Shown here: positions 6,299 through 30,200 of the stretch, piece after piece | How the letters are laid out: the number at the start of each line of letters is the position of its first letter | Numbering within the stretch: the first letter of the stretch is position 1 | NCBI GenBank assembly: GCA_021806005.1 | Contig: JAJZDM010000033.1 | Coordinates: 1-32,353, forward strand | DNA: 32,353 bases | Direction: 5' to 3' | DNA from: Acidobacteriota bacterium | GTDB taxonomy: Bacteria > Acidobacteriota > Terriglobia > Terriglobales > Acidobacteriaceae | Program-made: the position numbers and the translations under genes | The notes under the pieces: model-generated | What the model was told of the DNA's origin: nothing | Databases searched by the model: none | What the model saw: the letters and a program-made list of their open reading frames with translations, nothing else

Positions 6299-6299
<1 letters not shown>

Positions 6300-9830: not shown

Positions 9831-9895
9831 AGGAAGAGTTCCATCCGGGGATTACGGCCCCGGCGGGAAGAGGCGGGCCCGAGGCTCCGCCGGCC

Positions 9896-9904: not shown

Positions 9905-9909
9905 TACAG

Positions 9910-10941: not shown

Positions 10942-10944
10942 ACG

Positions 10945-11994
10945 ATGGGACTCAGTCCGGTACTCTGGCAATTTCTGGTCAACTGGCTCCACAACGCCTC
11001 GCTGTTTCCCGAGGAGGCGAGCACGATTGCACCCTATACGGACGCGCTTTACCTCTGTCTGGTCGTGATGACCATCGTCGGAACCACATTGGTAGCCACG
11101 CTGGTGGTGGTCTTCTCGGCCCGTTACCGGAGAGAGAGGAGCCCTGTGGCAACACAGATTGAAGGATCCACTCTCCTGGAGGCCACCTGGACCATCATCC
11201 CTCTGGCTATCTTTCTGGTGGCTTTCGTCTGGGGCGCCCTGCTCTACTTCCGCATCTTCAATCCCCCTCCCAACGCCATGAACATCTACATCGTCGGCAA
11301 ACAGTGGATGTGGAAGGCCGAGCATCCCGGCGGACAACACGAGATCAACGCCCTCCATGTCCCCGTAGGCCAGCCGGTGCAGTTGACCATGATCTCCCAG
11401 GACGTCTTCCACAGCTTCTCCGTGCCGGACTTCCGCATCAAGCGCGAGGTGATTCCGGGGCGATACTCCACCGTCTGGTTTGAGGCGACCAAGGTGGGAA
11501 CCTACCACCTTTTCTGCACCCAGTACTGCGGTACGCAGCACTCCGGCATGGTCGGTTGGATTACAGTCATGTCCCAGGAGGACTACAAAACCTGGCTTGA
11601 GCAGTCCACCTCCGGCCAGAGCCTGGCGCAGAACGGAGAGCGTTTGTATGCCAGCATGGGCTGCAACTCCTGCCACAACGGGACTGCGGCGGCCAGAGGA
11701 CCCGATCTGGCCGGTGTCTATGGCTCCAAGCTCACTCTTACCGACGGCCGTCAAATTCTGGTGGATGATGCCTACCTGCGAGATGCCATCCTGAATCCCT
11801 CTGCGCATGTCACCGCCGGCTATGCTCCCATCATGCCCACCTACCAGGGCCAACTGAGCGAGGACGGACTGATTGACCTGGTGGAATTTATCAAGAACAT
11901 GCAGTCCGACTACCGCGTGCAGCAGACTCTGGTGACTGCTGCATCCGGAGAATCTGCTCCCACAACGCCACCACAGGCTGCTGGGGAAAGGTGA
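10945..11994 (+). CDS. ctaC: Cytochrome c oxidase subunit II with fused cytochrome c (caa3 type)
   Basis: Electron-entry subunit of the terminal oxidase, 349 residues. Two N-terminal transmembrane helices (about 32-59 and 77-99) are followed by the cupredoxin domain with the CuA motif [13 protein letters not shown]191, C195, H199 and M202. A C-terminal cytochrome c domain is fused on, with heme site CNSCH at 240-244 and MPTY as the likely axial Met. This fusion defines a caa3-type enzyme, which can take electrons directly from complex III hemes without a soluble cytochrome. No cleavable signal peptide is evident. It lies three bases after the SCO gene and is followed by ctaD after four bases. 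Confidence 0.95.
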
Positions 11995-11998
11995 AGCC

Positions 11999-13675
11999 AT
12001 GAGTACAGCCGTTGGAAATACCATCGTCTCCTTACCGGACCAGAGCACGGCACAGTTGCCCAAGCGCCACTACATCAACAACGAGTATGGTCTTCTGAGT
12101 TGGCTGCTCACCGAAGACCACAAGAGGATCGCGCTCCTTTACCTTTTCTCGGTCACCTTCTTCTTCTTCATAGGCGGAGCCTTTGCCGGCTTGATCCGCC
12201 TGGAGTTGCTCACGCCTCAACCCGACCTGGTGGCGGCCGACACCTACAACAAGTTCTTCACCATGCACGGCCTCATCATGATCTTCCTCTTCCTTGTACC
12301 CTCCATTCCGGGTGTGATGGGGAACTTCCTGATCCCGCTGATGCTTGGTGCCAAGGACCTGGCCTTTCCCAAGCTCAACCTGTTGAGTTGGTACGTCTAC
12401 ATGGCAGGTGGAACTCTCACGCTGGCCGCGCTCGTGCTGGGCGGCGTGGACACCGGCTGGACCTTCACCGCTCCTCTCTCAACGCACTATCTCAATACCC
12501 ACGTCATTACTGCGGCGATGGCCATCTTCATCACCGGTTTCAGCTCCATCCTCACCGGCATCAACTTCATCGTCACCATCCATCGCATGCGCTGTCCAGG
12601 TATGACCTGGTTCCGCATGCCGCTCTTCCTCTGGGCGCACTATGCGGCCTCGCTGCTCATGGTGCTTGGAACTCCTGTGCTGGCCGTCACCTTGGTCCTG
12701 GTCGCCCTGGAGCGACTCTTCGGCATCGGGGTCTTCGATCCCGCCAAAGGGGGAGACCCGCTTCTCTTTCAGCATCTCTTCTGGTTCTACTCCCATCCTG
12801 CGGTCTACATCATGATCCTGCCCGGCATGGGGGTGATCTCCGAGGTCGTCTCCACCTTCAGCCGCAAACGGATCTTCGGATATACGGCGGTGGCCTTCAG
12901 TTCGGTCGCCATTGCGCTGTTCGGCTTCTTCGTCTGGGAGCACCACATGTTCATCATGGGCGTCTCCAGCTACTCGGCCCTGGTCTTCTCCTTGCTTACC
13001 ATGCTGGTCGCCGTGCCTTCCGCCATCAAGATCTTCAACTGGGCCTTTACGCTGCAGAAGGGGTCAATCACCTTTGAGACTCCCATGCTCTATTGCTTCG
13101 GCTTCATGGGCCTATTCACCATCGGCGGTCTCACCGGCGTCTTCCTTGGCTCGCTCGGCATGGACGTTCACCTCACCGAGACCTACTTCGTCGTGGCCCA
13201 CTTCCACTTCGTCATGGTGGGCGGCGGGTTGATGGCCTTCCTGGCAGGCATTCACTTCTGGTGGCCCAAGATGACCGGACGGATGTACCCTGAGACCATC
13301 TCCAAGCTCGCAGCGGTCACCACCTTCATTGGATTCAACCTGACCTTCCTTCCCCAGTTTGTTCTGGGCTATCTGGGTCTGCCGCGCCGCTATGCCGCTT
13401 ATCCACCGGAGTTTCAGGTACTCAACGTGCTCTCTACGGCGGGCGCCACCGTCCTCGGCTTTGGCTACATGCTGCCCATGCTCTATCTGGCATGGTCGCT
13501 GAAGTACGGTGCGATTGCCGGTAGCAATCCGTGGCAGGCCACCGGGCTGGAGTGGCAGATCGCCTCCCCGCCTCCCACCGAGAACTTTACCGAGATTCCG
13601 ATCATGGACCATGAGGTCTATGACTATGAGTGGCTCGCGAACAAGACGAAGAATGAGGTGACCACCGTTGGATAG
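11999..13675 (+). CDS. ctaD: Cytochrome c oxidase subunit I, A2-type heme-copper oxidase
   Basis: Catalytic subunit, 558 residues with about twelve helices, which reduces oxygen to water and pumps protons. Heme a ligands are H90 (MHGLIM) and H403; the heme a3 ligand is H401 (HFHF); CuB ligands are H266 and H315-H316 (WEHHM). Y270 is positioned to form the His-Tyr crosslink. The helix VI motif reads FYSHPAVY: the Glu of A1-type enzymes (HPEVY) is replaced by Ala-268 and the YS pair (264-265) is present, which marks the A2 subfamily. The start ATG is four bases after the ctaC stop, with GGGAAAGG upstream. The end overlaps the TTG start of ctaE. Confidence 0.96.
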
Positions 13676-15113: not shown

Positions 15114-16763
15114 TCAGCCGATATCCTCGGACCAGTTCTCAAGCGTCGCTTTGAAGTCGGACATGAACTTGCCCGCATCGGCGCCGTCAATGATCCGATG
15201 ATCAAAGCCCAGCGTAAAGTGTTGGATACTACGGATAGCGATGCTGTCTTGACCATCCACTCCTGTCACCACAACGGGCTCCTTGTTCAGGCCGCCGATA
15301 CCTAGAATGGCGGACTGCGGCTGCGCGATGATCGGCATCCCAAACTGTTCGCCGAAGATACCGGAGTTGGTCAGCGTGAAGGTTCCACCGGCCACCTCCT
15401 CAGGGGCCAGCTTTTTGGCACGCGCGCGCTCGGCAAGATCAACTACCGCCCGAGCCACCCCAAGGAAGCTCTTCTCCTCAACCTGGTGAATCACCGGGAC
15501 GATCAGCCCCCATTCCAGCGCCACCGCGATCCCCAGGTTGATATTGCGGTTATAGAGGATCGCCTCGCCCTGCATGGAGGCGTTGACAATCGTATGCTTG
15601 CGCAGAGCCTGCACCGCGGCGCGTGCGATGAACGGCATATAGGTCAGCTTCACACCGTTGCGCTGCTCGTACTTGTTCTTCTCTTTCTCGCGCAGCCGCA
15701 CGATGCGGGTCATGTCCACCTTGAAGACCGTGTGCACGTGCGGACTGGTGGCCTTGGACTCCACCATGCGCCTGGCGATGATGGAGCGCATCCGGGAGAG
15801 CGGCACAAGTTCGCCGGGCAGAGGCGCGCCGACCGGCAATGCAGGCGCGGCGGTTGGAGCCTGCGGCGCGGGGGCAGCCGGGGTAGGCGGCGCTGCAACG
15901 GGGGCGGCAACCGGGGGAGCAACGGGCGCGGCAACCGCCGCTGCGGCTGGCGCGGCCGCCGGCTCTTGTAACCGGCGCAGGATGTCCTGCTTGGTGATGC
16001 GGCCTGAGGCACCGGTTCCCGTCAGGGTGTTGAGATCGATCTTGTTCTCGGCAGCGATCTTGCGCACCAGCGGAGAAGACCGCGCCGCCTCGCTTCCAAC
16101 AGTGACGCCGGCCGGGCTGGCCGTCGCGCTGGGGACTGCCGGGCCGGCCGCAGCGGAGACCTGAGGCGCCGTAGGCGCAGCCTCAACAGCGCCGCCAATC
16201 ACGGCTACCACCGTGTTGATCGTCACCGTCTGCCCCTCCGCGACCCGGATCTCGGAGAGAACGCCGGCGGCGGGTGAGGGAATCTCGGCGTCCACCTTGT
16301 CGGTGGAGATCTCGAAGATGGGCTCGTCGCGTGCAACCGTATCACCAATCTTCTTGAGCCACCGCGTCAGCGTGCCCTCGGTGATCGACTCCCCCATCTG
16401 CGGCATCAGCACCTCGGTCCCTGCCCCAACACTAGCGCCAGGAGCCGCAGCAGCGGGCTGCGCAGCGGTCGCTTCCGACGGTGCCGGCGGCGTCACGGGA
16501 GCCGCGGGAGCCACGGCCTGCTGGCCGGCCTCCAGGATCGTGCAGACAACGGTTCCGATGCCGACCGTCGTACCCTCTTGAACCTTGATCTCGCCCAGAA
16601 TGCCGGCGGCGGGCGAAGGAATCTCGGCATCCACCTTGTCGGTGGAGATCTCAAAGATGGGTTCATCACGGGTCACCATTTCGCCGGGCTTCTTGAGCCA
16701 CCGGGTAAGTGTTCCTTCCGTAATGGACTCACCCATCTGGGGCATTACAACGTCGATTGGCAT
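15114..16763 (-). CDS. sucB: Dihydrolipoamide acyltransferase, E2 of a 2-oxoacid dehydrogenase (likely succinyltransferase)
   Basis: Core enzyme that transfers the acyl group from lipoamide to CoA. The 549-residue protein has two tandem lipoyl domains (lipoyl Lys 43 and 156, both in STDKVDAEIPSPAAG), a peripheral-subunit-binding domain (about 229-263, PLVRKIAAENKIDL), a long Ala/Pro linker (264-315) and the catalytic domain to the end, with the active-site motif HRIIDG (H522, D526). The start MPIDVVMPQMGESITEG is the normal lipoyl N-terminus; the longer frame adds 14 unlikely residues. Substrate is not decided by sequence: the 2-oxoglutarate complex is favoured by similarity in style, and a branched-chain complex is possible. 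No E1 gene is present here. A TATAAT box lies about 70 bases upstream. Confidence 0.9.
   Translation of the reverse strand: MPIDVVMPQMGESITEGTLTRWLKKPGEMVTRDEPIFEISTDKVDAEIPSPAAGILGEIKVQEGTTVGIGTVVCTILEAGQQAVAPAAPVTPPAPSEATAAQPAAAAPGASVGAGTEVLMPQMGESITEGTLTRWLKKIGDTVARDEPIFEISTDKVDAEIPSPAAGVLSEIRVAEGQTVTINTVVAVIGGAVEAAPTAPQVSAAAGPAVPSATASPAGVTVGSEAARSSPLVRKIAAENKIDLNTLTGTGASGRITKQDILRRLQEPAAAPAAAAVAAPVAPPVAAPVAAPPTPAAPAPQAPTAAPALPVGAPLPGELVPLSRMRSIIARRMVESKATSPHVHTVFKVDMTRIVRLREKEKNKYEQRNGVKLTYMPFIARAAVQALRKHTIVNASMQGEAILYNRNINLGIAVALEWGLIVPVIHQVEEKSFLGVARAVVDLAERARAKKLAPEEVAGGTFTLTNSGIFGEQFGMPIIAQPQSAILGIGGLNKEPVVVTGVDGQDSIAIRSIQHFTLGFDHRIIDGADAGKFMSDFKATLENWSEDIG
16279..16673 (-). repeat. 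Internal direct repeat encoding the duplicated lipoyl domains
   Basis: The blocks starting at 16279 and 16618 are nearly identical over about 55 bases and lie 339 bases apart, exactly 113 codons. Each encodes the lipoyl-lysine region of one E2 lipoyl domain. The two whole domains (residues about 1-75 and 116-190) are similar beyond this core, which points to an in-gene duplication kept similar by selection or conversion. Confidence 0.8.
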
Positions 16764-16835
16764 GGGAAACAGTCTCCGGGAGAGTTTGCAGCGCCCACAA
16801 GACACTCTGGGAGCTGCCTGCGGCGCAACTTTGAG

Positions 16836-16841
16836 ATTATA
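16836..16841 (-). promoter_or_regulatory. Candidate -10 box for the E2 gene
   Basis: A perfect TATAAT reads on the minus strand 72 bases upstream of the E2 start. The -35 region is weak (TCTTTC at 17-base spacing). With the hairpin at the end of lipB just upstream, this suggests E2 can be transcribed separately from lpd-lipB. Confidence 0.4.
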
Positions 16842-16899
16842 CGGCTCCAGCTAACTTCGAAAGAGTACAAAATTACCAATCTGTACTTATTGGTACAAC

Positions 16900-17649
16900 T
16901 CAACCCCCTGGCGTTGGCTCCAGGGGGGACGAAGCCGCACCCAGGAGTTCCTGCAGTGACCCTGCCGCCAATATCTGGCGCTGAAAGACACGACCGAAGT
17001 TTGTGGAGACCACCGCTGCCGCTTGTTCCATCGTCGGGGCCGGTCCGGGAGCCTCCTGCTCCAGCGAGGTCACGGCACGGTCTGAGATGCCACAGGGAAC
17101 GATCCAGTCAAAGTCGCGCAGATCGGTGGTGACGTTGAGCGCAAATCCGTGCGACGTAATCGCTTGCGCCACATGAATCCCGATCGCCGCAATCTTCTTC
17201 TCGCGCACGCTGCCGCCGGGTAGCGTCCAGACTCCGGTACGCTTGCAGATGCGTTGGGTGGGGATGCCGAAGTCCTTGCAGGAAAGAATCAGCGCCTCCT
17301 CGATCCGGCGAACGAAGTCGACCGGACCGAGGTGCGGACCGCGCTTCCCGGGCAGGTCGCCGCGGAGGTCAAAGATGGGGTATCCCACCAGTTGACCGGG
17401 GCCGTGATAAGTGACGTCTCCGCCGCGGTTGATCTCGTGTACCTCGACACCGCGCGCCGAGAGTTCCTCGTGGCTGGCCAGAATGTTGGCACGACTGGCG
17501 TTGCGGCCCAGGGTAAGAACCGGCGGATGCTCCAGCAGAATAAGCGTATCGCCGATGGCGCCGGCTCTGCGCGCCGCGGCTACCTCCGCCTGGAGTCGCA
17601 GGCCCTCCGCAAACGGGACACGGCCGAGTTGGAGCAGGTGGATAAGCAC
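16900..17649 (-). CDS. lipB: Octanoyl-[ACP]:protein N-octanoyltransferase LipB
   Basis: Moves octanoyl groups from acyl carrier protein onto the lipoyl-domain lysines of E2 and similar proteins; LipA, not in this window, then inserts sulfur. About 249 residues from the GTG at 17649. The signature RGGDVTYHGPGQLVGYP (from 75), the catalytic Lys in KKIAAIGIHV (about 152) and the catalytic Cys in PCGISDRAVTSL (about 186) are all present, as is TSHGFALNV. A longer frame extends back into lpd but has no plausible start between the lpd stop and this GTG. The gene begins 41 bases after lpd and ends 136 bases before E2, its substrate protein, so the arrangement is functional. Confidence 0.9.
   Translation of the reverse strand: MLIHLLQLGRVPFAEGLRLQAEVAAARRAGAIGDTLILLEHPPVLTLGRNASRANILASHEELSARGVEVHEINRGGDVTYHGPGQLVGYPIFDLRGDLPGKRGPHLGPVDFVRRIEEALILSCKDFGIPTQRICKRTGVWTLPGGSVREKKIAAIGIHVAQAITSHGFALNVTTDLRDFDWIVPCGISDRAVTSLEQEAPGPAPTMEQAAAVVSTNFGRVFQRQILAAGSLQELLGAASSPLEPTPGG
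16904..16927 (-). terminator. Hairpin spanning the end of lipB
   Basis: CCCCCTGG (16904-16911) and CCAGGGGG (16920-16927) form an eight-pair stem with an eight-base loop covering the last lipB codons. On the minus strand it is followed by TTGAGTTGT, a weak U-rich tail. It may partly separate lipB from E2 transcription. Confidence 0.4.
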
Positions 17650-17690
17650 TTCGTCTCGAGATCGTCTGGAAGCTCTGAAGTTCTCCGACG

Positions 17691-19130
17691 CTATACGTTT
17701 ACCGCCATCCCCTCCACCGCCGAGAATCCATCCAGCAGGCTCTCGGCGAGGGTCGGATGGGCATGGATGGTGAACATCAGCTCCTCCACCGTGGCCTCCA
17801 ACTCCAGCGCCACAACGCACTCCGCGATCAATTCGGTGGCCTGTGGGCCGACGATATGCACCCCCAGCACCTCACCGTAGCGAGCGTCAGAAACCACCTT
17901 CACGAAGCCCTCGTGGGAATCGATGATGGTGGCCTTGGAGTTGCCCATGAAGGGAAACTTGCCCACCTTTACCGTGTAGCCCTTCTCTTTGGCCTGGGCC
18001 TCGGTGAGTCCCACGCTGCCAATCTGCGGATCGCAGTACGTGCAGCCCGGAACGCGCTCCTTGCGGACGGGACGGGCGTACTTGCCGGCCAGCTTGCTGG
18101 CCACCACAATGCCGCTCATGGCGCCCACGTGTGCCAGTTGCGGCAATCCCGCCACGATGTCCCCGATGGCGTACACTCCGGGCTCACTGGTCTCCATCCA
18201 CTCGTTCACCGGGATGTAGCCGCGATCCAGGGTGATCTTCACCTTGTCCAGGCCGGCGTCTGCGGTACGCGGACCACGCCCCACGGCTACCAGGACCTTC
18301 TCGGCCTCCTTCACCTGGGGTTTGCCGGCGGAATCGATGAAGCTGACCTTCACTCCTCCGGAGGTCTTCTCCATCTTCTCCACCTTGCAACCGGTATTCA
18401 CTTCGATGCCGCGCTTCTTGAAGGTACGTGTCAACTCCTTGGAAACCTCTTCATCCTCCACGGGAACCATGCGGGGAAGCGCCTCCAGAATGCTGACTTC
18501 AGCACCAAAGCTGCGGAAGATAGAGGCAAACTCCACCCCCACGGCGCCCGAGCCGATGACGATCAACGACTTGGGAGGAGCAGCCAGGTTAAGGATCTCC
18601 ATATTGGTCAGGATCGTCTCATCGGCCGTGTAGCCGGGCAGCATGCGGGCGTCCGAGCCGGTAGCCAGCGCCACCTTCTTGCCCTGAACCAGTGTCACCG
18701 TCTTCTTGTCCCCACCCGTAACCTCCACGGTGAAGACGCCCTCCCGAGCCGGGCCGGTCAGCCTTCCGTGGCCGCGCACCACGCTAATCTTGTTCTTCTT
18801 CATCAGGAAGTCCAGACCCTTGGTGTGCTTGGTCACAATCTCATTCTTGCGCTTGAGCAGGTTCTGCCAGTTCAGGCGGGGAGTCGATACGCCGTCGATG
18901 CCATAGCTCTCGGCGTGCTTCAGATGGTCCCAGACCTCGGCGGAGAACAGCATGGCCTTGGTAGGGATGCAACCCCAGTGCAGGCAGGTTCCGCCCAGCT
19001 TGTCGGTCTTCTCAATGAGGGCCACCTTCAGGCCAAGCTGCGCGGCGCGGATGCCGCAGGTATAGCCCGCCGGACCGCCGCCGACGATGACCAGGTCATA
19101 GATTGTCTCTGCCAAAGGGATGTACTCCAT
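17691..19130 (-). CDS. lpdA: Dihydrolipoyl dehydrogenase (E3)
   Basis: FAD enzyme that reoxidises dihydrolipoamide on E2 with NAD+. The 479-residue protein has the N-terminal FAD motif VGGGPAGYTCGIRAAQLG, the redox disulfide GGTCLHWGCIPTKA (C49, C54), the NAD-binding VIGSGAVGVEFASIF, the second FAD motif (VYAIGDIVAG) and the C-terminal catalytic pair HAHPTLAE (H458, E463). Everything needed for activity is present, unlike the broken homologue at the right end of the window. Upstream Shine-Dalgarno sequence is weak. It is followed by lipB and E2 on the same strand, making a lipoate-centred cluster. Confidence 0.95.
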   Translation of the reverse strand: MEYIPLAETIYDLVIVGGGPAGYTCGIRAAQLGLKVALIEKTDKLGGTCLHWGCIPTKAMLFSAEVWDHLKHAESYGIDGVSTPRLNWQNLLKRKNEIVTKHTKGLDFLMKKNKISVVRGHGRLTGPAREGVFTVEVTGGDKKTVTLVQGKKVALATGSDARMLPGYTADETILTNMEILNLAAPPKSLIVIGSGAVGVEFASIFRSFGAEVSILEALPRMVPVEDEEVSKELTRTFKKRGIEVNTGCKVEKMEKTSGGVKVSFIDSAGKPQVKEAEKVLVAVGRGPRTADAGLDKVKITLDRGYIPVNEWMETSEPGVYAIGDIVAGLPQLAHVGAMSGIVVASKLAGKYARPVRKERVPGCTYCDPQIGSVGLTEAQAKEKGYTVKVGKFPFMGNSKATIIDSHEGFVKVVSDARYGEVLGVHIVGPQATELIAECVVALELEATVEELMFTIHAHPTLAESLLDGFSAVEGMAVNV

Positions 19131-20567: not shown

Positions 20568-23183
20568 ATGCTTAAGGTTGTGGCCTCCCCATCCCCCAAT
20601 CCGCCCGTTCCCTGCGTACCGCTCCCGGCACGGCTGGCCGAGACCAGCGGTGCCGCGCTGCAATGGGCTGAGCTGATCCGCTACATCTCTGGTCATGCGC
20701 AGTCGGAGCTCGGCAGGCGCCACCTGCTGGCCATGGAACCATCCTCCGATCCCGCCTGGATCGAGCAGCAACAGCAGCGCAACGCCGAGATGCAGCAGCG
20801 TATCGCCGGGGGCAGCTTTGACTTTCACGGGATCTTCGATGCCACAGAGCTATTGAATCAGGCGCGCATCGAGGGTGCGGCCCTGGAGGCCGGGCAGATC
20901 CGCGCGCTGCTCAGGCACGCCGAGCGCGTGGAGACGTGGCGACGTCAGGTGCTCTCGCCGGACGAGGGCGCACAGCCTGGCGAGTTCCCGGCCTCCGGCC
21001 CCTCCTCCGGTCTGCGCGAACTCACCCTACCGCTCGCGCCGCATGACCTGGGGAACCTCCTCCGCTCGCTCACCGGCAAGATCGAACCCGACGGCAGCCT
21101 CAGCGATGATGCGTCCCCGGAGCTGCGCAGCATCCGCAGAACCCTGGAGCAGCAGCACCGGGCGATTCAGACCAGCCTGCGCCGAGCCTTGGCCAGACTC
21201 TCGGAGGACGGAAGCGCGCAGGAGGCCTTGATCACCGTCCGCGGCGAGCGCTTCGTCATCCCCGTCAAAGCCGAGTTCAAGCGCCGGGTTGGGGGAGTGG
21301 TCCACGGTTCCAGCTCCACCGGCCAGACGGTGTTCATCGAACCCTTGGAGACCATCGAGCACAATAATGAGCTGGCTAGGCTGCTCGATGAGGAGCAGGC
21401 TGAGATTCATCGCATCCTCGTCTCCATGACGCGCACCGTGGCCGCAAACGCCGAGGCCCTGCTGCTGGGCGCCCAGGTGTTGGCCCAGGCCGACGCCCAC
21501 CAGGCGATCGCCCGCGTGGCGGCGGAGTTTTCCTGGGTGCGGCCAGTTCTTCACCCTGCCAGCGAGCTCTTGTCCGTGGAAGCCCCAAACTCAACAGCCG
21601 CCGAGAGTTCGGAGTCCGACCGCCTCTTCGAGCTTCAGGAAGCTCGCCATCCGCTGCTCGACCTTCGTCTCCGCTCCCAGGGAGCGAAGATCGTTCCTCT
21701 CACCCTCGCCCTGCCTGTCGGAAAGAGACAGATGATCGTTAGCGGACCCAACACCGGCGGCAAGACCGTGGCGCTCAAAACGGCCGGGCTGCTGGCCCAG
21801 ATGGCGCAGGCCGGAATGCCGGTGCCCGCCCGCAGTGCAAGCCTGCCGTTGTTCACCGCCATCTACGCCGACATCGGCGATGCGCAGTCCATCGAGCGCA
21901 ACCTCTCCACCTTCTCAGCGCACGTCATGCATCTCGAGCGCATCGCCCAGCGCGCGGATGCGCGTTCGCTGGTGCTGCTCGATGAGCTGGGATCGGCCAC
22001 CGATCCCGAGGAGGGCGCGGCTCTGGCCGTCGCCGTCGCCGAACACTTCCTGAACCGCCGTGCCTGGTGCATCATTACCACCCACCTAACCTCGTTGAAG
22101 GTCTACGCTGCCAAGCATGGCGGCCTGCCTGGAGAGACCGGTGTGGTAAATGCAGCCGTCGGCTTCGATGAAGCGACGATGTCCCCGACCTATCAGCTTC
22201 GCCTGGGTGTGCCGGGAGCCTCGGCGGGTCTGAACATCGCCGCTCGGCTGGGGCTGGATCCGGCGATTGTGGCCCATGCCCGCGCCCAGATGACCTCCCA
22301 GCAGGTGGATATCGGCAGGTTTCTCGATGAGCTGCACGCGCAGCTCACCGCGGCCGCAGCGGAGCGCGAGCGCCTTGCGACCGCCGAGCGCGCCCTGGCC
22401 AGGGAACGCCTGCGCCTGGAGCAGGAAGGACGCGCCGAGCAGCAGGCGCGTACCCGCGAACTCGAGCGCCAACTCAAGGAGCTCATCGAGGCCTTCGAGG
22501 CGCAACTGCGCGATACCGTCAAGGCCATCGGCGACAAGACCGTCGCCCAGAAGATCGCGCGCGACGCCGCCCTGCGCGTCGCCCGCCTCAAGCGCGAGTT
22601 CTCCGAGCAGTTTCAAAGTACGGTGGTGGCCCACCAGGAGTCCGCCCCGAACCTCGCCGGGGAGAGCAAACCGACCGAACGACAAGATGAGCCTCAGGCC
22701 GGGGACCTCGTCCGGCTCCGTTCCCTGAACCGCGAAGGCCGCGTGGTCCGGGTGCTGGACCGCAAAACGCTCGAGGTGGCCGTCGGACCGATGAAGATGC
22801 GCGTCCGCCGGAACGATGTCGCCGAGGTGGTCGCCCACTCCGCCAGCCGCAACGATGGGTCAGGCTCGCACAGCCTTGCCTCTCAGGGAGCCCGGCGGGG
22901 CGGCGTTACCGTCTCCACCGCCGCCGACTCCGACTACATCAGCGCTGAGATCAACGTCATCGGCCGAACCGCCGATGAAGCGGAGAGCGAGGTCGAGCGG
23001 TTCATCGAAAGAGCCTTTCTCGCCGGACTGCCCCGCGTTCGCGTGGTCCATGGAGTCGGCATGGGGATCCTCCGGCGCACGCTTCGCGAGTTTCTGCGCC
23101 AGCATCCCCATGTCACCGCCGTCTCTGAACCTCCCTACAACGAAGGCGGCCAGGGCGCGACGCTGGTCGAGCTTCGGCAGTAG
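20568..23183 (+). CDS. mutS2: MutS2 family protein (DNA mismatch/recombination or ribosome-rescue ATPase with Smr domain)
   Basis: 871-residue MutS-like ATPase without the mismatch-recognition domain. MutS2 proteins suppress homologous recombination in some bacteria and split collided ribosomes in others. Visible features: N-terminal helical core and clamp, ATPase with Walker A GPNTGGKT (about 393-400), Walker B LVLLDELGSATDPEEG (about 468), HLTSLK, a long coiled coil (about 585-690), a KOW-like segment (AGDLVRLRSLNREGRV) and a C-terminal Smr domain. The Smr domain keeps VHGVGMG (from about 827) but its first motif reads INVIGR (from 795) in place of the usual LDLRG. Start is ATG 20568, with little Shine-Dalgarno sequence; GTG 20580 is possible. 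No hairpin terminator follows. Confidence 0.93.
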   Translation: MLKVVASPSPNPPVPCVPLPARLAETSGAALQWAELIRYISGHAQSELGRRHLLAMEPSSDPAWIEQQQQRNAEMQQRIAGGSFDFHGIFDATELLNQARIEGAALEAGQIRALLRHAERVETWRRQVLSPDEGAQPGEFPASGPSSGLRELTLPLAPHDLGNLLRSLTGKIEPDGSLSDDASPELRSIRRTLEQQHRAIQTSLRRALARLSEDGSAQEALITVRGERFVIPVKAEFKRRVGGVVHGSSSTGQTVFIEPLETIEHNNELARLLDEEQAEIHRILVSMTRTVAANAEALLLGAQVLAQADAHQAIARVAAEFSWVRPVLHPASELLSVEAPNSTAAESSESDRLFELQEARHPLLDLRLRSQGAKIVPLTLALPVGKRQMIVSGPNTGGKTVALKTAGLLAQMAQAGMPVPARSASLPLFTAIYADIGDAQSIERNLSTFSAHVMHLERIAQRADARSLVLLDELGSATDPEEGAALAVAVAEHFLNRRAWCIITTHLTSLKVYAAKHGGLPGETGVVNAAVGFDEATMSPTYQLRLGVPGASAGLNIAARLGLDPAIVAHARAQMTSQQVDIGRFLDELHAQLTAAAAERERLATAERALARERLRLEQEGRAEQQARTRELERQLKELIEAFEAQLRDTVKAIGDKTVAQKIARDAALRVARLKREFSEQFQSTVVAHQESAPNLAGESKPTERQDEPQAGDLVRLRSLNREGRVVRVLDRKTLEVAVGPMKMRVRRNDVAEVVAHSASRNDGSGSHSLASQGARRGGVTVSTAADSDYISAEINVIGRTADEAESEVERFIERAFLAGLPRVRVVHGVGMGILRRTLREFLRQHPHVTAVSEPPYNEGGQGATLVELRQ

Positions 23184-23213
23184 CGACCTCCTGCCAGCCA
23201 TTGGATTGAGGGA

Positions 23214-23594
23214 TTACTCTTTTGATTCCATTGGTCTTATAGCAAATGCAGGGTGGTATCCCCGTTCAACCATCCCTTTTTGGCCGTTCGCTGCAAAATA
23301 TCCCCGTTCACTGCTTTGATAACGACTTGCGCCCCCTGATCCTCCTAAGCTGTAGGCGTAGTCGGATGCGGTCCGGATCTTCTCGCCTTCGCCTGAGATC
23401 CGACTCAGGACTCTGGCCCCGCACTCCGGGTGAACAGTCCAGGTCAGAGGTTCGGGCAGATAGCCAGGACCGGCAGTCTGAGCATCTCGAGTCTCCGCTA
23501 GGGCGAAGTTGCCATAGGAGGCTCCAAAGCAAGCAATCAGGGCAACCAGGCCAAGGCAAGCAGTGTCTGGTAACCGGCGATGCCCGTCAGTCAC
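23214..23594 (-). CDS. Possible small secreted protein, unrecognised
   Basis: A 126-codon frame from GTG 23594. The beginning resembles a signal peptide: basic VTDGHRR, hydrophobic LGLVALIACFGASYG, then FALA-ET as a possible cleavage site. The mature part has a Ser/Gly stretch and two copies of ERGY spaced 14 residues apart, which come from the 12-base DNA repeat. Third-position GC is weaker than in the neighbouring genes, no good ribosome binding site is seen, and no family is recognised, so the frame may be chance. It would be divergent from the radical SAM gene. Confidence 0.22.
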   Translation of the reverse strand: MTDGHRRLPDTACLGLVALIACFGASYGNFALAETRDAQTAGPGYLPEPLTWTVHPECGARVLSRISGEGEKIRTASDYAYSLGGSGGASRYQSSERGYFAANGQKGMVERGYHPAFAIRPMESKE

Positions 23595-23675
23595 TCGAGC
23601 GTCTCCGTTTGAACCGTCGCCGTTCGATTTTGTAGGACCAAGCACTGACCGCGCTGATCGTCGCGGAGAACCTTC

Positions 23676-23682
23676 AGGAGGT
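23676..23682 (+). promoter_or_regulatory. Near-perfect ribosome binding site of the radical SAM gene
   Basis: AGGAGGT lies seven bases before the ATG at 23690, the strongest Shine-Dalgarno match I found in the window. It fixes the start and suggests high expression. Confidence 0.85.
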
Positions 23683-23689
23683 ACGAAAG

Positions 23690-25792
23690 ATGGGAAAGGC
23701 AACAAAGCTCTTAGAAAAAGGCATCGTTGTGGGCGCCAGGAGCGCCTGGGCAGTGTTTAGCCGGCTGAACTCCATCAGCCCCAATGAGAGCTTTACCCCG
23801 AAGTGGTCGGATAAGCCGCTGCTCAAGTCGTACCAGAAGGAGAAGCCACCCCTGGGCTGGCCACGCACCACCGACTCCCTCTGTCCCAAATGCGTTCCGC
23901 AGATCCGCAAACAGATTGTGGATGGCAAGCTCCCTCACGAGATTCTGCTGAATGAGAAGGTAGGAGAGATCAAGGCGCAGATCATCGAGCGGGACGGCAA
24001 GATCCTGATGGTGAAGGACTGTCCGATCCACGGTCACTTTGAAGATGTGATGTCCATCGATCCTCCCATGATGAAGCATCTGGAGGATGTCTTCCCAGGC
24101 CGTGACATCCGTGCCCACAACGACAGCAAGCTTCACAATCACGGCACTTCGACGGTAACCCACGGCCGCGGCGCTGTGCTGACCATCGACCTCACCAACC
24201 GCTGCAACATGATGTGCGACCCCTGCTTCATGGATGCCAACCAGGTGGGCTTCGTGCATGAACTGACCTGGGATGAGATCAAGACCATGCTGGACAACGC
24301 CATCACCATCAAGCCCAGGCGGCAGATGTCGGTGCAGTTCTCCGGCGGCGAACCCACGCTGAGCCCGTACTTCCTGGACGCTGTAGCCTATGCCCGCAAG
24401 GTGGGCTACAACTCCGTACAGGCAGCCACCAACGGGATTGAGTTCGCCAAGTCCAAAGAGTTCGCCAAAGCAGCCGCCGAAGCCGGCCTGCGCTACGCCT
24501 ACCTGCAGTTTGACGGCATCGGCAACGCGGCCAACTCGCACCGCAAGGTGGGCAACGCCTTTGACGTAAAGCTGCAGGCGATCCACAACCTGCATGAGGC
24601 CGGTGTGGATATCGTTCCGGTTACGACTATCGTCAACGGAATCAACAACGAGCAGGTGGGGCGCATCATCGAGTTCGCGATGGACAACCCCAAGAAGATC
24701 AACTTCCTCTCCTTCCAGCCCGTCAGCTTCACCGGCCGCGATGAGGATATCTCCGACGAGCGCCGCGCAGCGCAGCGCTATACCCTCTCGCATATGGCGC
24801 ATGACGTCCGCAACCAGACGGGGCTTGGCGAGAGCACACGAGATTGGTTCCCCATCAGCTTCATGTCCACCTTCACGGACTGGGCTGACCTGGTGCACGG
24901 ACCCAACAACGAGTGGGGCCAACTCTCCTGCGGATGCCATCCCAACTGCGGCATCGGTATGGCCCTGATGATCGATAAGGAGACCAAGGAAGCCGTGCCG
25001 GTTACGGCCTTCCTGAACGCTCCCCAGCTTGCCAAGGATATCGCGCGGGTCAACGATGCGTCCCGCGGCAAGTTCTTCACCATCCTGGGCGGCTCCCTGG
25101 CCCTGATCCGCAACTATGAGCCCTCCAAAGCCCCCAAGCACTTCAGCATCTTTGCTCTGCTGGCCAAGTTCGATAAGGCCTTTGGAGCCAGCGGACGTTC
25201 CTATGGCAAGGTCACCGCGGACCGCACCATGGAAGACATCCAGAAGCGCCGCGCGGATCGCTGGAACTTCCTGTTCATCGCCGGTATGTGGTTCCAGGAC
25301 CTCTTCAACTACGACTTCCGCCGCACCGAACAGTGCATCATCCCCTATGCCACTCAGGAGGGCGAGATCAGCTTCTGCGCCTACAACACCGGCATCGGCT
25401 GGCGCAACATCATTGAGAAGATGCACATGACTGCCTCGCTCACCAAGTGGTATGAGGAGCACGGTCGCCATGAGATCTTTGCGGGCGGCAAGAAGGTAGG
25501 CCTGGAGAAGCAGGAGAAGTACGATCTGGTGCTCAACCAGGAGCATGTGGATGCGGCCGCCAATGACACCTTCGACAAGTCCGGCATCGCCAAGAACGCG
25601 CGCGAGGAGAAACTCCGTGCGCGCGAGCAGAAGCTCAAGCAGGACGCCGAGAACGCCCGCATGGCTAAGCTGTACCGCAAGGAGATCCTGAAGGAGCAGG
25701 ACACTCCGGGGTTCGTCGCGCTCGGGGAGATCAGCGGAGCAAAACCCGCTGCTCAGCAGAAGGACGTCGAGGAGACCGTCGCCGGCGACTAA
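23690..25792 (+). CDS. Large radical SAM protein, tetraether/membrane-spanning-lipid-synthase-like
   Basis: 700-residue radical SAM enzyme. Its layout resembles the archaeal Tes/GrsA (MJ0619-type) family: an N-terminal CPKC (65-68) and a later DCPIHGHFEDV (C111, H114), which together look like a small metal-binding module; the SAM cluster motif CNMMCDPC (C172, C176, C179) after LTIDLTNR; QFSGGEPTLSP; and further cysteines in CGCHPNC (414-420) and at C549 and C563 that could bind auxiliary clusters. A charged helical tail (about 615-665) ends the protein. Family members couple lipid tails or make membrane-spanning lipids; Acidobacteria are known for iso-diabolic acid. That substrate is inferred here. 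It stands alone between a strong ribosome binding site and a strong terminator. Another radical SAM role cannot be excluded. Confidence 0.75.
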   Translation: MGKATKLLEKGIVVGARSAWAVFSRLNSISPNESFTPKWSDKPLLKSYQKEKPPLGWPRTTDSLCPKCVPQIRKQIVDGKLPHEILLNEKVGEIKAQIIERDGKILMVKDCPIHGHFEDVMSIDPPMMKHLEDVFPGRDIRAHNDSKLHNHGTSTVTHGRGAVLTIDLTNRCNMMCDPCFMDANQVGFVHELTWDEIKTMLDNAITIKPRRQMSVQFSGGEPTLSPYFLDAVAYARKVGYNSVQAATNGIEFAKSKEFAKAAAEAGLRYAYLQFDGIGNAANSHRKVGNAFDVKLQAIHNLHEAGVDIVPVTTIVNGINNEQVGRIIEFAMDNPKKINFLSFQPVSFTGRDEDISDERRAAQRYTLSHMAHDVRNQTGLGESTRDWFPISFMSTFTDWADLVHGPNNEWGQLSCGCHPNCGIGMALMIDKETKEAVPVTAFLNAPQLAKDIARVNDASRGKFFTILGGSLALIRNYEPSKAPKHFSIFALLAKFDKAFGASGRSYGKVTADRTMEDIQKRRADRWNFLFIAGMWFQDLFNYDFRRTEQCIIPYATQEGEISFCAYNTGIGWRNIIEKMHMTASLTKWYEEHGRHEIFAGGKKVGLEKQEKYDLVLNQEHVDAAANDTFDKSGIAKNAREEKLRAREQKLKQDAENARMAKLYRKEILKEQDTPGFVALGEISGAKPAAQQKDVEETVAGD

Positions 25793-25816
25793 CGCCCGGA
25801 CGATCCTGCAGAACTG

Positions 25817-25847
25817 AAGAGGCCGCCCACCCGGGCGGCCTCTTTTT
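25817..25847 (+). terminator. Intrinsic terminator after the radical SAM gene
   Basis: Arms GAGGCCGCCC (25819-25828) and GGGCGGCCTC (25833-25842) pair perfectly around the loop ACCC, extended by AA/TT, followed by five T residues (25843-25847). A textbook rho-independent terminator 25 bases after the stop codon. Confidence 0.93.
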
Positions 25848-25944
25848 ACGCCTTCCTGTTTTCGCGCCGCCATAGCGGATCTGCGGCACAACGATCCTGT
25901 AACGCCGCGCTCCAGCATCGGCAACGTTGCTTCTCTCTGCATCC

Positions 25945-27090
25945 TCAGTCGCCCTTCGCTCCTATCGCTGCGGCAGCGATCAGCGCGTCAAGCGCGGAGG
26001 TCTGGGTTGCTGCATCTGCCTGCCCGAAGGGCCCGGACCAGACCAGGCCAAACTGATTTCCAGGCCCCCGATCCTCCCTCCAAACCGCATCGGCATTGGT
26101 CTGAATGAACCGCGTCTCGTCAGGCTGCGGGGAGTACATGTCGAGCGCCATGAGATTGCGCAGAAAGATTCCCTTGAACTGGGTCCCATCGCCCCCGCAG
26201 TTGGGCTCGCAGGCATCATGCAGGACGCCGTTGCGATCCACAAGGCGTGTGACGGCGGCGCTGGCTATGCCTTGCGCCGTGCTGAGGAGCACTGGGCTGG
26301 AGTCCGCTTTGGAGAGCTCGACCAGTCCTCCCAACACCACTCCCTGGTTGTACGTCCAGGTCGTCCCGCTGTTGTTGCTGCACACCGCCTCTCCGGCGCT
26401 GTTGCGGTCAATCTTTAGCCCGTCGTTGATCAGATTCTTCGCGTTCACCATTCCGGAAGCGGCGAACCATTGCCATTCCCTGTTGGCCCACTTCAGATAT
26501 TCCTGGCGATGCCTCCGGTCGCGACTGGCCAGGTGCGCTGCCAGGGAGAGAAACAGCTCATTGGCTATGGCATTTTTGTACTGTCGTTTCTTGCTCCACC
26601 AGATGCCGCCGCCGCAGGTTGGATCCCAGCCGCCCTTCATGTTCTCGAAGATCGAACGCGCCATCTTCAGATAGGCTCGGCGGTGGGTCAGGTCCCAGGC
26701 ATCCACCCAGGCCAGCCCCCACCATCCCTCATCATCGTAGAAGTTGTTAAGAAAGCTGGGGCTCTTCTTCTGCGCTTGGGTAAAGGTTGTGGCAATCACC
26801 TTGTTGTACTTCCGGGTCTGCTTCAAGCGAGCGTAATCAACAAGGACCGTGACGGAGTTCGCCGCATTCCACCAGCCGGTGGTACGGTACAGACCCGTCG
26901 CAGGGTCATACCATCCCTGCAAAGTCACAATCCCATCTCCCGAACGATCCAGAAACGGGGAGGCGGACTGCTTCCCCAGCGTCTGCGCCGCGCCACCAAC
27001 CGGCGTGGACATTATGACGGCTGCAATCAGAAGCAATCCAGCCCAGCCAATGGAGCTGCGCACAGGGGCCCTGCCACCGTTTCTCATCAT
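25945..27090 (-). CDS. Secreted GH76 family endo-alpha-1,6-mannanase
   Basis: Glycoside hydrolase expected to cut the alpha-1,6-mannose backbone of fungal or bacterial mannans. 381 residues from ATG 27090: a signal peptide (hydrophobic GWAGLLLIAAVIMSTPVGG, then AAQ) and a single (alpha/alpha)6 domain. The catalytic pair is D119-D120 in NNFYDDEGWWGLAW; other family hallmarks are TCGGGIWWS, YKNAIANELFLSLAAHLA and TWTYNQGVVLGGL. The longer frame (from 27132) is rejected because GGGAG lies five bases before ATG 27090 and gives a normal signal peptide. Paired with GH125 on the same strand it forms an endo/exo mannan system. No transporter or polysaccharide-binding gene is in view. Confidence 0.88.
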   Translation of the reverse strand: MMRNGGRAPVRSSIGWAGLLLIAAVIMSTPVGGAAQTLGKQSASPFLDRSGDGIVTLQGWYDPATGLYRTTGWWNAANSVTVLVDYARLKQTRKYNKVIATTFTQAQKKSPSFLNNFYDDEGWWGLAWVDAWDLTHRRAYLKMARSIFENMKGGWDPTCGGGIWWSKKRQYKNAIANELFLSLAAHLASRDRRHRQEYLKWANREWQWFAASGMVNAKNLINDGLKIDRNSAGEAVCSNNSGTTWTYNQGVVLGGLVELSKADSSPVLLSTAQGIASAAVTRLVDRNGVLHDACEPNCGGDGTQFKGIFLRNLMALDMYSPQPDETRFIQTNADAVWREDRGPGNQFGLVWSGPFGQADAATQTSALDALIAAAAIGAKGD

Positions 27091-27296
27091 TCCTGCTCCC
27101 TTCCAAAGACCCGTGAAGATACTCTGCCGCATCCTGACGTTGCATCAAGTCATCCAGTCAATCTCTCGTTGACGATTCCGCATCTTGCACAAAGGAACTC
27201 GTCATGTTGGCCCGGTAGCCTTGCGGCTGTAATGCCGCCATACGTACAACGTCATCTCCGCCGCGCGGACGCGCGCGCTCCCTGCACTCGGCACAC

Positions 27297-28601
27297 TCAA
27301 CTACGGATCAGGCAACAACTCTTGAACTTTTTGCCGCTGCCACAGGGACAGGCGTCGTTGCGCCCTGTTCTCTCCCGTGCCGTCCGCGCATCCTGCGCGG
27401 CCGCCCAGCCCATCACGTTTGCCGGCGGCCGATGCGAAGCCAACTCCGCCGCCATGAAACGCATGTACGGATCGATGTGACGGAAGAACATCTTGTAACC
27501 GGCACATAAATAGTTCAGTCCGGACTCTCCGTCCGGAGTCTTCGCAAATCGATGCTTGGGACACTCGCCGTTACAGGCAAACCGCACATCGCAGTCACGG
27601 CAGAACTGGGGCAGTGTGGATGCTTTCTCCTCGCCAAACCGGCGTTGCTGCTCGGATCCCACGAGATTCTCCAGCGCCGACTCCATGATGTTCCCCAGCT
27701 TGTTCTCCGGATACACAAAGTGATCGCAGGAGTACACATCTCCGCAGTGCTCCATCGCCAGGGCCTCGCCGCAGGTCTTGCGGAAGACACACAGGCTGGC
27801 CTCCATGCCCAGCCACATCTCCAGGGAGACGTCGAACAGCTGAACAAAGCTGCGGCCAACGTCCCCACGCACCCACTCGTCAAAGATCGCACAGAGAAAG
27901 CGCCCGAACTGCTTCGGCTCAACCGACCAGGGCGCCACCCTGGCAGCATCTGCAAAATCGGGTGACACCAGATTCAGCCCGTCGGCAGTGGTCTGTTGCG
28001 CGGTTCGCTCCACGATCGGAATGAACTGCATAAAGCCGCTCCCGCATCTCCTCAGGAATCGGTAGACCTCCAACGGGTGGTCGGCGTTGCGGCGATGCAC
28101 CGTGGTCAGGGTATTGAACTCAACCTTGTGCTGCTTCAGGACGTCGATCCCGCGCATCACGCGGTCAAACGTCGGCTGCCCTCCCTTGTCGACACGGTAC
28201 GCATCATGCAACTCCCGCGGCCCATCGATGGAAACGCCGACTAGAAAGCGGTTCTCGCGAAGAAATTCGGCCCATGCCTCGTTCAGCAGGACTCCATTCG
28301 TCTGCAGCGCATTCTCAACCCGCTTGCCGTTCGCATATTGCTTCTCCAACTCCACCACGCGCCGGAAGTAATCCACCCCCAGCAGTGTCGGCTCGCCGCC
28401 CTGCCATGCAAAGCTCACCACCGGCGTGTCGTGTGCCTCAATATACTGGCGAATGTAGCTCTCCAGCACATCGTCGCGCATGGCCCACTTCTCGGCCTGA
28501 GGATACAACGCCTCTTTTTCCAGATAGAAACAGTACTTGCAATCAAGATTGCAGATTGGACCGATCGGCTTGGCCATCACGTGAAACGCGGACTTGCCCA
28601 T
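27297..28601 (-). CDS. anSME-like radical SAM/SPASM sulfatase-maturating enzyme with SEC-C tail
   Basis: 434-residue radical SAM protein of the anaerobic sulfatase-maturating type, which oxidises a Ser or Cys of a sulfatase to formylglycine. The SAM cluster motif is CNLDCKYC (C17, C21, C24), followed by WQGGEPTLLG and LQTNGVLL; SPASM cysteines are seen in CGDVYSCDHFVYP and in CRDCDVRFACNGECPKHRF. The C-terminus adds GRNDACPCGSGKKFKSCC, a SEC-C zinc-binding motif. No sulfatase is encoded in this window, so the partner is elsewhere or the substrate differs. It lies between GH125 and GH76 on the same strand, about 135 and 206 bases away. GAGGG precedes the ATG at good spacing. Confidence 0.88.
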   Translation of the reverse strand: MGKSAFHVMAKPIGPICNLDCKYCFYLEKEALYPQAEKWAMRDDVLESYIRQYIEAHDTPVVSFAWQGGEPTLLGVDYFRRVVELEKQYANGKRVENALQTNGVLLNEAWAEFLRENRFLVGVSIDGPRELHDAYRVDKGGQPTFDRVMRGIDVLKQHKVEFNTLTTVHRRNADHPLEVYRFLRRCGSGFMQFIPIVERTAQQTTADGLNLVSPDFADAARVAPWSVEPKQFGRFLCAIFDEWVRGDVGRSFVQLFDVSLEMWLGMEASLCVFRKTCGEALAMEHCGDVYSCDHFVYPENKLGNIMESALENLVGSEQQRRFGEEKASTLPQFCRDCDVRFACNGECPKHRFAKTPDGESGLNYLCAGYKMFFRHIDPYMRFMAAELASHRPPANVMGWAAAQDARTARERTGRNDACPCGSGKKFKSCCLIRS

Positions 28602-28736
28602 GGATACCCTCTGAGAACTTAGTATGCGATCCGTTTATCGTCTCATCCCAATCACATCCGGCGCGCTGTCCTCGCACCTCCGCACGCCGCTGCTGACAGT
28701 CTCGGCTACAAGATACCAGGACAGGACACACTGTCT

Positions 28737-30200
28737 TCAGGCGTGCACCGTGAACTGGCGTAACAAGGTCGGCCGCTCCCGATGCAGCTTCAGGATCAGC
28801 TCTCCAAACAGGCCATTTGCCCAGGCGAACCAGGGGCGTGTGTAGTCGGCCGGGTTGTCCTTCTGGAACGACTCATGCATGAACGCTGTACCGACGGTAG
28901 TGGTGCACAGGGTCCGCAGGCACGTGACAATCTCCTCTTCCTTGGCACTGGTAAGAGCTCGCATGGTGATGGACATGGGCCAGATATACCCAAGACCGAT
29001 ATGCGGTCCACCAATCCCTTCTCCTGCGCTTCCTCGGAAGAAGTATGGATTATTCAGGCTCAGAGCAAAGGCTCGCGTGCGGCTGTAGAGCGGATCGTTC
29101 TGCCGTAGCAGACCGAGATAGGGAAGAGACAGCAGACCCGGAGCGTTGGCGTCATCCATGGCCAGGGAGTTGCCGTAGCCATCAATCTCGTAGGCCAGAA
29201 TCTGCCCCCAGGTCGCATGGTGAATCGTTCCATACTGCATCACCGCACTGCGAATCTGCCTGGCGAACTGCCGGCATTCCTGAGCGAACGCCTGCTTGTT
29301 GTACACCGTCGCGGAGATCTCGCCGATGCGCTCCAACGTCAGCGCCGCAAACAGATTTGCAGGCACGAACAAGGGATACGTGCAGGCATCGTCGGAGGGC
29401 CGGAATCCGGAGCAGATCAGACCGTTGGGCTTGACCGGATTGCCATAGCCATTCAGCTCCAGCGTTCCGGTAGGCTCCAGCGACTCCCGCTGGAAGTGAT
29501 AGGGTCCGGGGCCGGAGAGGCGCTGCTGCTCTCGGAAGGTCGCCACGATCCGCGTCGCCGCTCCCATCCAGAGCTCATCGAACGGCGCCGTGGATCCGGT
29601 CGCCTTCCAGAAGCCATGTGCAAGACGCACGGGGTAACAGAGTGAGTCGATCTCCCACTTTCGCTCTCCCACCCCGGGCCGCATCGCAGTCCGGTCATGC
29701 AGCGCCCACGACAGCGGCGGGTCATCCGTATATCGAGTAAAGGCGTTGGCGTACGGGTCAATCTGGATAAGCCGCGCCTGGCGGCGGATCACGCCCTCCA
29801 GCAGCCCGCTCAGCGCCTCATCCTTGGAGGCGAACTGCAGATAGGGCCACACCTGAGCGGACGAGTCTCGCAGCCACATCGCATCGATGTCGCCAGTGAT
29901 CACGTAGGTATCCGGCTTTCCTTGCCTGGTCCCAGGGAAGACCGTGGTATCCAACGTGTTTGGAAAGCAGTTGGTGAAGATCTTTGCCAGCTCCGGACTG
30001 CTGATGCCGGCACAAACCTCCGCCATCGCGTCTTCGATCACCGCGGAACGGAAGTGCCGCTCTGGAACAGGAGGTCGCCCATTGAGCCCCGTAAACTCCG
30101 GTGTCTTCGGTTGCTGCACCGGCGTCTTCGGCTGCTGCGCTGGAAGGGCATTTGCCAGCCCGGCTGCGGCTGATCCAAGCAGAAGCTCACGACGGTTCAT
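28737..30200 (-). CDS. TAT-exported GH125 family exo-alpha-1,6-mannosidase
   Basis: 487 residues of the metal-independent glycoside hydrolase 125 family (formerly DUF1237), which releases mannose from the non-reducing end of alpha-1,6-linked mannans. The N-terminus MNRRELLLGSAAAGLANALP is a twin-arginine signal, followed by a short repeat (PKTPVQQPKTPEF). Family signatures: ITGDIDAMWLRDSSAQVWPY, KWEIDSLCYPVRLAHGFW, CSGFRPSDDACTYPLFVPAN, YEIDGYGNSLAMDDANAPGLL and GPHIGLGYIWPMSITMRA. The family uses an acidic pair for inverting catalysis; exact residues were not assigned here. It is first in a minus-strand group with the anSME-like gene and GH76. A short hairpin (arms about 28719-28725 and 28732-28738) lies at its end. 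Confidence 0.9.
   Translation of the reverse strand: MNRRELLLGSAAAGLANALPAQQPKTPVQQPKTPEFTGLNGRPPVPERHFRSAVIEDAMAEVCAGISSPELAKIFTNCFPNTLDTTVFPGTRQGKPDTYVITGDIDAMWLRDSSAQVWPYLQFASKDEALSGLLEGVIRRQARLIQIDPYANAFTRYTDDPPLSWALHDRTAMRPGVGERKWEIDSLCYPVRLAHGFWKATGSTAPFDELWMGAATRIVATFREQQRLSGPGPYHFQRESLEPTGTLELNGYGNPVKPNGLICSGFRPSDDACTYPLFVPANLFAALTLERIGEISATVYNKQAFAQECRQFARQIRSAVMQYGTIHHATWGQILAYEIDGYGNSLAMDDANAPGLLSLPYLGLLRQNDPLYSRTRAFALSLNNPYFFRGSAGEGIGGPHIGLGYIWPMSITMRALTSAKEEEIVTCLRTLCTTTVGTAFMHESFQKDNPADYTRPWFAWANGLFGELILKLHRERPTLLRQFTVHA

Follow-up and report, generated by a model that had tools for sequence, protein, structure and literature searches.

The window analysed here comprises the 32,353 nucleotides (nt) of contig JAJZDM010000033.1 from an Acidobacteriota assembly (GCA_021806005.1, family Acidobacteriaceae). 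At 23690..25792 of its forward strand, on which all features of the gene described below lie, an open reading frame (ORF) with an ATG start encodes a 700-amino-acid radical S-adenosylmethionine (SAM) protein of the Tes class, assigned to an acidobacterial group A and considered as a candidate synthase of the membrane-spanning lipid iso-diabolic acid. The frame is conserved along most of the protein in relatives that are ~50-94% identical, which is beyond chance. An AGGAGGT ribosome binding site is present at 23676..23682, with the ATG 7 nt downstream. At 25816..25845 lies an intrinsic terminator-like hairpin of 13 pairs followed by a T run (-27.5 kcal/mol, z -5.48), which was equalled by none of 200 shuffled sequences; the consensus terminator scan did not pick it up, probably because the T run partly pairs with the stem. 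Both signals had been described in the initial annotation and are borne out, as are the exact positions of the cysteine motifs that it gave (CPKC, DCPIHG, CNMMCDPC, 414-420, 549 and 563). Its description of the gene as strongly expressed is not established: the codon bias is moderate (rank 5 among 19 window ORFs by deficit in the effective number of codons), and no sigma-70-type promoter match was found by a promoter scan of 23100-26000.

Predicted metal sites of the protein

The reference for the metal sites is the archaeal enzyme Tes/GDGT-MAS (MJ0619; structures 7TOL and 7TOM; profile NF045702), which is described in PMC9433317 as having a rubredoxin site (C9, C12, C33, H36), an N-terminal [4Fe-4S] cluster (C73, C77, C80 and a His), a radical SAM motif CX3CX2C, a C-terminal cluster with the labile ligand Met439, and a Tyr459 close to the substrate. 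The window protein, ~30% identical to this enzyme, has in common with it the full-length fold, the rubredoxin-type site, the radical SAM motif and the counterparts of Met439 and Tyr459. Pfam domains correspond to a zinc ribbon (PF23545, residues 58-122) and Radical_SAM (168-330). By alignment, C65-P-K-C68 (23882..23893) forms the first half of the rubredoxin-type site, equivalent to Tes C9 and C12, and D-C111-P-I-H114-G (C111-H114 at 24020..24031) forms the second, equivalent to C33 and H36. The radical SAM cluster motif is C172-NMM-C176-DP-C179 (24203..24226; Pfam and alignment). Further along, C420, within C414-G-C416-HPN-C420 (24929..24949), aligns with an invariant Tes cysteine, M533 (25286..25288) corresponds to Met439, and C549, Y553 (Tes Tyr459) and C563 (25334..25378) mark the C-terminal auxiliary cluster region. 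On our own reading of the alignment, the C-terminal cluster may be bound by C420, C549 and C563. All twelve of these positions (C65, C68, C111, H114, C172, C176, C179, C420, M533, C549, Y553 and C563) are identical in 40/40 rows of alignment A1, which holds 40 ORFs hand-picked for spread, and in 54/54 rows of alignment A3, which samples 53 of at least 80 loci.

Several elements set the window protein apart from Tes. A predicted amphipathic helix at residues 2-27 (23693..23770) lies outside the Tes-aligned part and reaches a hydrophobic moment of 0.49, the 99th percentile within the protein, at a predicted local distance difference test score (pLDDT) of ~45-55. The halves of the rubredoxin-type site are separated by an insert of ~22 residues relative to Tes, placed approximately at 23894..23959. 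C414 and C416 are invariant in the window's group, whereas in Tes C416 is patchy and C414 rare. The charged helical tail of ~60 residues, noticed in the initial annotation, was confirmed at residues 605-669 (25502..25696; 15 K/R and 14 D/E), with helices predicted at 605-624 and 634-669, outside the Tes fold. Finally, the stretch in which Tes has C73-x3-C77-x2-C80 and a His instead carries a group-specific H149-x-H151 (24134..24142), and H151 and S154 align with cysteines of the Tes N-terminal [4Fe-4S] motif. As judged from these alignments, the catalytic sites are kept and the N-terminal cluster is predicted to be unable to form with its known ligands.

Assignment to the Tes class and the missing N-terminal motif

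The initial annotation had placed the gene in the Tes/GrsA family, and both the profile search and the structure comparison agree with the Tes part of this placement. Tes NF045702 was the best of 41 NCBIfam families (E 1.7e-93), at 313.9 bits where the curated equivalog cut-off is 450. The best PDB sequence match was GDGT-MAS 7tol (E 1.2e-59), with the next family at 1.2e-6. The predicted fold, compared with 7tom, gave Z 45.5 and a root mean square deviation of 2.6 A over 477 residues, against Z 21.0 over 274 residues for MoaA, the next match; this comparison, for which Foldseek was also used, relies on an AlphaFold2 model with a mean pLDDT of 77.4 and a poorly predicted loop at 141-156. Because the alignment behind the model consisted of Tes relatives, some of the resemblance to Tes is inherent, and the comparison is supportive but not independent of the sequence match. 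Membership of the Tes class is supported by the profile, the 7tol match, the full-length fold and the catalytic residues, together with the distribution and the pattern of exchange with canonical Tes described below. GrsA and GrsB are defined by a radical SAM cluster only, and the window protein has the residues of the C-terminal auxiliary cluster besides. Two other identities were considered and rejected. Annotation as a pterin methylase, after the Pfam name HMPTM, was dropped on the strength of PMC9433317, in which such an annotation of MJ0619 is judged incorrect. A peptide-maturing SPASM enzyme was rejected on scores far under that of Tes (PqqE 42.2 and SkfB 32.9 bits) and on SuiB with Z 16.9 as against 45.5.

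The more specific label "MJ0619 type" fits in part: the protein is of the Tes class, yet it scores under the curated cut-off, is without the N-terminal [4Fe-4S] motif and falls in a separate group. This motif occurs in 0/72 distinct group sequences (the window's included) and in 81/96 Tes-like sequences, once 30 duplicates and 17 ORFs lacking a core match (5 group A/B and 12 Tes-like) had been removed, and with the groups split at 44% identity to the window protein. In 69 of the 72 group sequences the corresponding stretch has no cysteine, and in the other 3 it has one. Conversely, HxH[G/A] and CxCHPxCG are both found in 72/72 group sequences and 0/96 Tes-like sequences. Within A1, the positions of the second and third cysteines, filled by cysteine in 12/12 Tes-like rows, hold the His (H151) and Ser (S154) in 28/28 rows of groups A and B, and the His of column 157 is present in 12/12 Tes-like rows and 0/28 rows of the two groups. 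A description of this loss was not found in the open-licence literature, which was surveyed mostly by title listing.

The window's group also separates in a tree of 69 proteins, drawn with its root at the midpoint only, in which group A (23 rows) and group B (5 rows) are together set off from archaeal and bacterial Tes by a branch of 100/100 support and length 1.84. The supported unit is A plus B, since A alone formed one clade in 19% of bootstrap trees. The paralogous group B (L061, L075, L082, L083 and L045; families f21 and f28) is ~48-53% identical, and in its 5/5 rows Q216, in the strand before SGGEP, is replaced by Leu. Canonical Tes-like proteins of Acidobacteriota (e.g. L119 and L064) come from the same phylum, have the same catalytic residues and are at times encoded by the neighbouring gene; in contrast to the window's group, the 12 in A1 retain the N-terminal motif and fall on the archaeal side of the 100/100 branch. 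Scores on the Tes model differ likewise: group mates reach 317.5 (L061) and 351.9 bits (L068), and six acidobacterial Tes-like proteins reach 486-619 bits, all above the cut-off, while a seventh that was scanned (L057) is TrsS-like at 257 bits.

The loss of one cluster motif and the score under the Tes cut-off would fit a degenerate relative of Tes that does not couple lipid tails, an explanation that we consider very improbable. The 31 members of the window's own family among the matches listed (E 0) are 75-94% identical, and all residues aligned to catalytic sites are invariant. Moreover, 15/96 Tes-like sequences are also without the N-terminal motif, among them L177, which scores 595.9 bits on the Tes model; cluster loss alone is therefore not loss of the Tes type. 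Of these 15, the 11 within A3 (of 53 Tes rows) are all archaeal (L177, L182, L185, L190, L191, L197, L198, L203, L207, L208 and L210), 8 of them titled as Methanomassiliicoccales groups. Their replacement sequence is different, and the motif was apparently lost in them independently of the acidobacterial loss, to judge from the sequences. Oxygen was considered as a cause of the loss and set aside: there is no simple correlation, and the motif is retained in L064, a Tes-like protein whose genome belongs to the same family as the window.

Distribution, exchange with canonical Tes and genomic context

A match at E 1e-20 or better was present in 173 of the 297 genomes of a phylum-wide sample. The class sample consisted of genomes at least 90% complete, with at most 2-3 candidates scored per genome, so that second copies may escape. 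A match at 1e-40 was found there in 389/399 genomes; 11 of these had a Tes-like gene only, leaving 378/399 with the group gene, a count that includes one carrier (G573) on a 74%-identical contig-edge fragment and two (G496 and G627) on matches of 4.9e-128 and 1.2e-116 alone. The gene is usually single-copy. It is the only Tes-class gene of the window genome, which is 97.4% complete, the next protein match being at E 1e-5 and the next profile match at 63.9 bits. Plasmid-borne named copies were sought and discounted, as they amounted to three records covering 43-72% of the query at 24-26% identity.

Canonical Tes-like genes, distinguished by matches at E 2.3e-189 or better (the other matches listed were 9.5e-95 or worse), occurred in 50/399 genomes of the class sample. 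They were found in 11/21 genomes without the group gene as against 39/378 with it (Fisher p 5.6e-6). When the losses were grouped by hand into 16 events, by genus and family labels and not by a species tree, 7 were accompanied by a Tes-like gene, where the base rate is 12.5% (p 0.002). Of the 39 genomes in which both genes occur, at least 7 show them no more than 11 kb apart and in the same orientation, at ~400 bp or less in G265 and G579; the seven are not independent, six being from the window's family and one (G579) from another. Our reading is that the group gene and canonical Tes are alternative forms of a single function that were either inherited or exchanged.

This distribution bears on the possibility that the enzyme uses the same radical chemistry on lipid tails for another reaction, namely GrsA-like ring formation, Gms-like chain bridging or methylation of iso-diabolic acid. 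Radical SAM lipid enzymes have a core in common, C5/C6 methyls on iso-diabolic acid and rings on Solibacter branched glycerol dialkyl glycerol tetraethers (brGDGTs) are known (PMC13274423), and some genomes contain several Tes-class genes, giving scope for a division of labour. Such a reaction is nevertheless unlikely: GrsA/B are most likely without an auxiliary cluster and Gms is a SPASM protein (PMC11186832), while the window protein keeps the C-terminal cluster residues and the full Tes fold; its gene, furthermore, is near-universal in the class sample, as expected of a core-lipid enzyme, and swaps with canonical Tes-like genes.

A conserved operon was looked for in 32 stretches, of which L220-L222 surround a Tes-like gene only and L099 and L104 surround the paralogue, and was rejected, the top neighbour clusters recurring in only 6, 5 and 5. 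A proline-rich, lipoprotein-like ORF (cluster 1) lies near the group A gene in 6/32 (L089, L091, L105, L215, L216 and L217), and a MutS2 neighbour is common to 3, the window included. Next to the canonical Tes-like gene, a protein that reads as a MutY-like adenine glycosylase recurs (L212, L214, L215, L217 and L222).

Elsewhere in the window, 1252-13675 contains matches to Fer4 domains, NrfD, SCO1/SenC, COX2 and COX1, looking like an alternative complex III with an aa3-type oxidase; given these cytochrome oxidase subunits, the host probably respires oxygen. On the reverse strand at 15114-19130, a 2-oxoacid dehydrogenase E2, a lipoyl ligase-family protein and an E3-like pyridine nucleotide-disulphide oxidoreductase are encoded in a row, and these could supply branched-chain fatty acid starters. 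Also on the reverse strand, 25945-30200 encodes a GH76 protein, an anaerobic sulfatase maturase-type radical SAM protein with SPASM and SEC-C, which scores above its curated cut-off, and an adjoining GH125 alpha-mannosidase. A search of the window genome for PF09989, a family that contributes to PlsA-type ester reductases, gave no protein, although the control Thermotoga maritima has one; the predicted membrane-spanning lipids of the host would for this reason probably be ester-bound. A modified PlsA has been proposed for ether formation in Thermotoga (PMC8788747).

Proposed function in iso-diabolic acid synthesis

The lipids of the phylum suggest a product for the enzyme. Iso-diabolic acid is known from Acidobacteriota subdivisions 1, 3, 4 and 6 (PMC13274423). 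Its share of the fatty acids is 11.8-30.4% across six Edaphobacter columns (PMC11354219) and 26.8-49.2% for Occallatibacter with its relatives (PMC12935467). Its pathway has been proposed with "a still unknown enzyme" (PMC10087280). The gene is also carried by three genomes that were assigned to Chloracidobacterium by their FMO protein (3/3), which we take to mark this genus within Acidobacteriota. Iso-diabolic acid is a primary fatty acid of Chloracidobacterium (PMC12816986). Taken together with the profile, fold, residue and distribution results above, these data suggest, with a probability that we put at roughly three in four, that the window gene encodes a Tes-class membrane-spanning lipid synthase making iso-diabolic acid.

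If the enzyme works like its homologue GDGT-MAS (PMC9433317), its radical SAM cluster would generate a 5'-deoxyadenosyl radical, which would abstract a hydrogen at the tail end of an acyl chain in one phospholipid. The resulting carbon radical would be held in a C-S bond to the C-terminal [4Fe-4S] cluster until a second SAM produced a radical on a second tail, whereupon the two tails would join. The substrates would be the iso-C15:0 chains of intact phospholipids and the product iso-diabolic acid, as the lipids of the phylum suggest. The enzyme would operate without the Tes N-terminal [4Fe-4S] cluster, and, more speculatively, the amphipathic N-terminal helix and charged tail might hold it at the membrane.

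Several points weigh against this assignment. The Tes model finds matches in 14/14 control genomes, 3 of them above the cut-off, so that a match below it, as here, is weak alone; the modelled fold is not independent of Tes; and the whole group is without the N-terminal cluster motif. No neighbour is widely conserved as a partner among the 32 stretches, and 10/21 genomes without the group gene are also without a canonical Tes-like gene, which makes outright loss possible, although some of these assemblies are fragmented and two of the ten counted as having neither (G620 and G454) show divergent Tes-class matches of 3.2e-61 and 3.6e-47. With respect to lipids, Solibacter usitatus is reported to be without iso-diabolic acid and to make brGDGTs, with two Tes homologues (PMC10087280), and Koribacter, with a Tes homologue that shares 42% identity with the archaeal enzyme (PMC8941075), makes iso-diabolic acid tetraesters (PMC13274423); canonical Tes-like proteins may therefore make iso-diabolic acid too. 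Among acidobacterial metagenome-assembled genomes (MAGs) of the Black Sea, Tes homologues were reported in 17/97 and Mss, a published bacterial coupling enzyme, in 11/97 (PMC11868695). The proposed activity, lastly, is a candidate one carried over by homology, and the host's own lipids are deduced from its phylum.

The presence of Mss in these MAGs would also fit an alternative in which another enzyme, a Thermotoga Mss orthologue or an unrelated protein, makes iso-diabolic acid and the window protein has a different substrate. This is quite unlikely, since Mss models retain the Tes catalytic architecture (PMC13274423), the window genome has no second Tes-class gene, and one genome of Chloracidobacterium shows, besides the gene, part-length matches that are weak (E 7.6e-29 and 2.8e-23). 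Mss, set beside the window's group by description only, is alike in expected reaction and product and is described as active mostly under anaerobic conditions (PMC11868695); the group may correspond to the proteins named Mss elsewhere, or may be distinct from them.

Synthesis of membrane-spanning lipids by acidobacterial Tes homologues has already been suggested in the literature (PMC8941075). In that paper, 456 Tes homologues were identified in bacteria and a role in making brGDGTs was put forward, with mention of Edaphobacter aggregans (32%), Koribacter (42%) and Solibacter (40%); the single E. aggregans homologue, 32% identical to archaeal Tes and put forward for brGDGT synthesis, is a probable orthologue of the window gene. 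According to PMC11868695, bacterial Tes homologues lack experimental confirmation. The present analysis adds a definition of the acidobacterial group, the cluster motif that it lacks, its near-universal presence across the class sample and its exchange with canonical Tes. These features lead us to suggest, tentatively, that the group could be what synthesizes iso-diabolic acid in soil Acidobacteriota: a pared-down, two-cluster enzyme that would have traded the surface-exposed N-terminal [4Fe-4S] cluster for His-x-His, with two extra cysteines beside a cysteine of the C-terminal cluster, perhaps allowing the chemistry in oxygen-breathing bacteria, and that would replace, or be replaced by, canonical Tes in evolution. 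This proposal is held at less than even confidence because Mss homologues have already been reported from acidobacterial MAGs.

The roles of the remaining metallocofactors of GDGT-MAS were not clear to its authors (PMC9433317), and the natural loss of the N-terminal cluster described here bears on the role of that cluster. Branched GDGTs, whose alkyl chains iso-diabolic acid resembles, are in wide use for reconstructing past temperature and pH (PMC13274423), so the window gene is a candidate for making lipids of use as climate proxies. With a defined candidate that is near-universal in the class sample and usually single-copy, from a family of which many members are in culture, the question becomes directly testable in Acidobacteriota.

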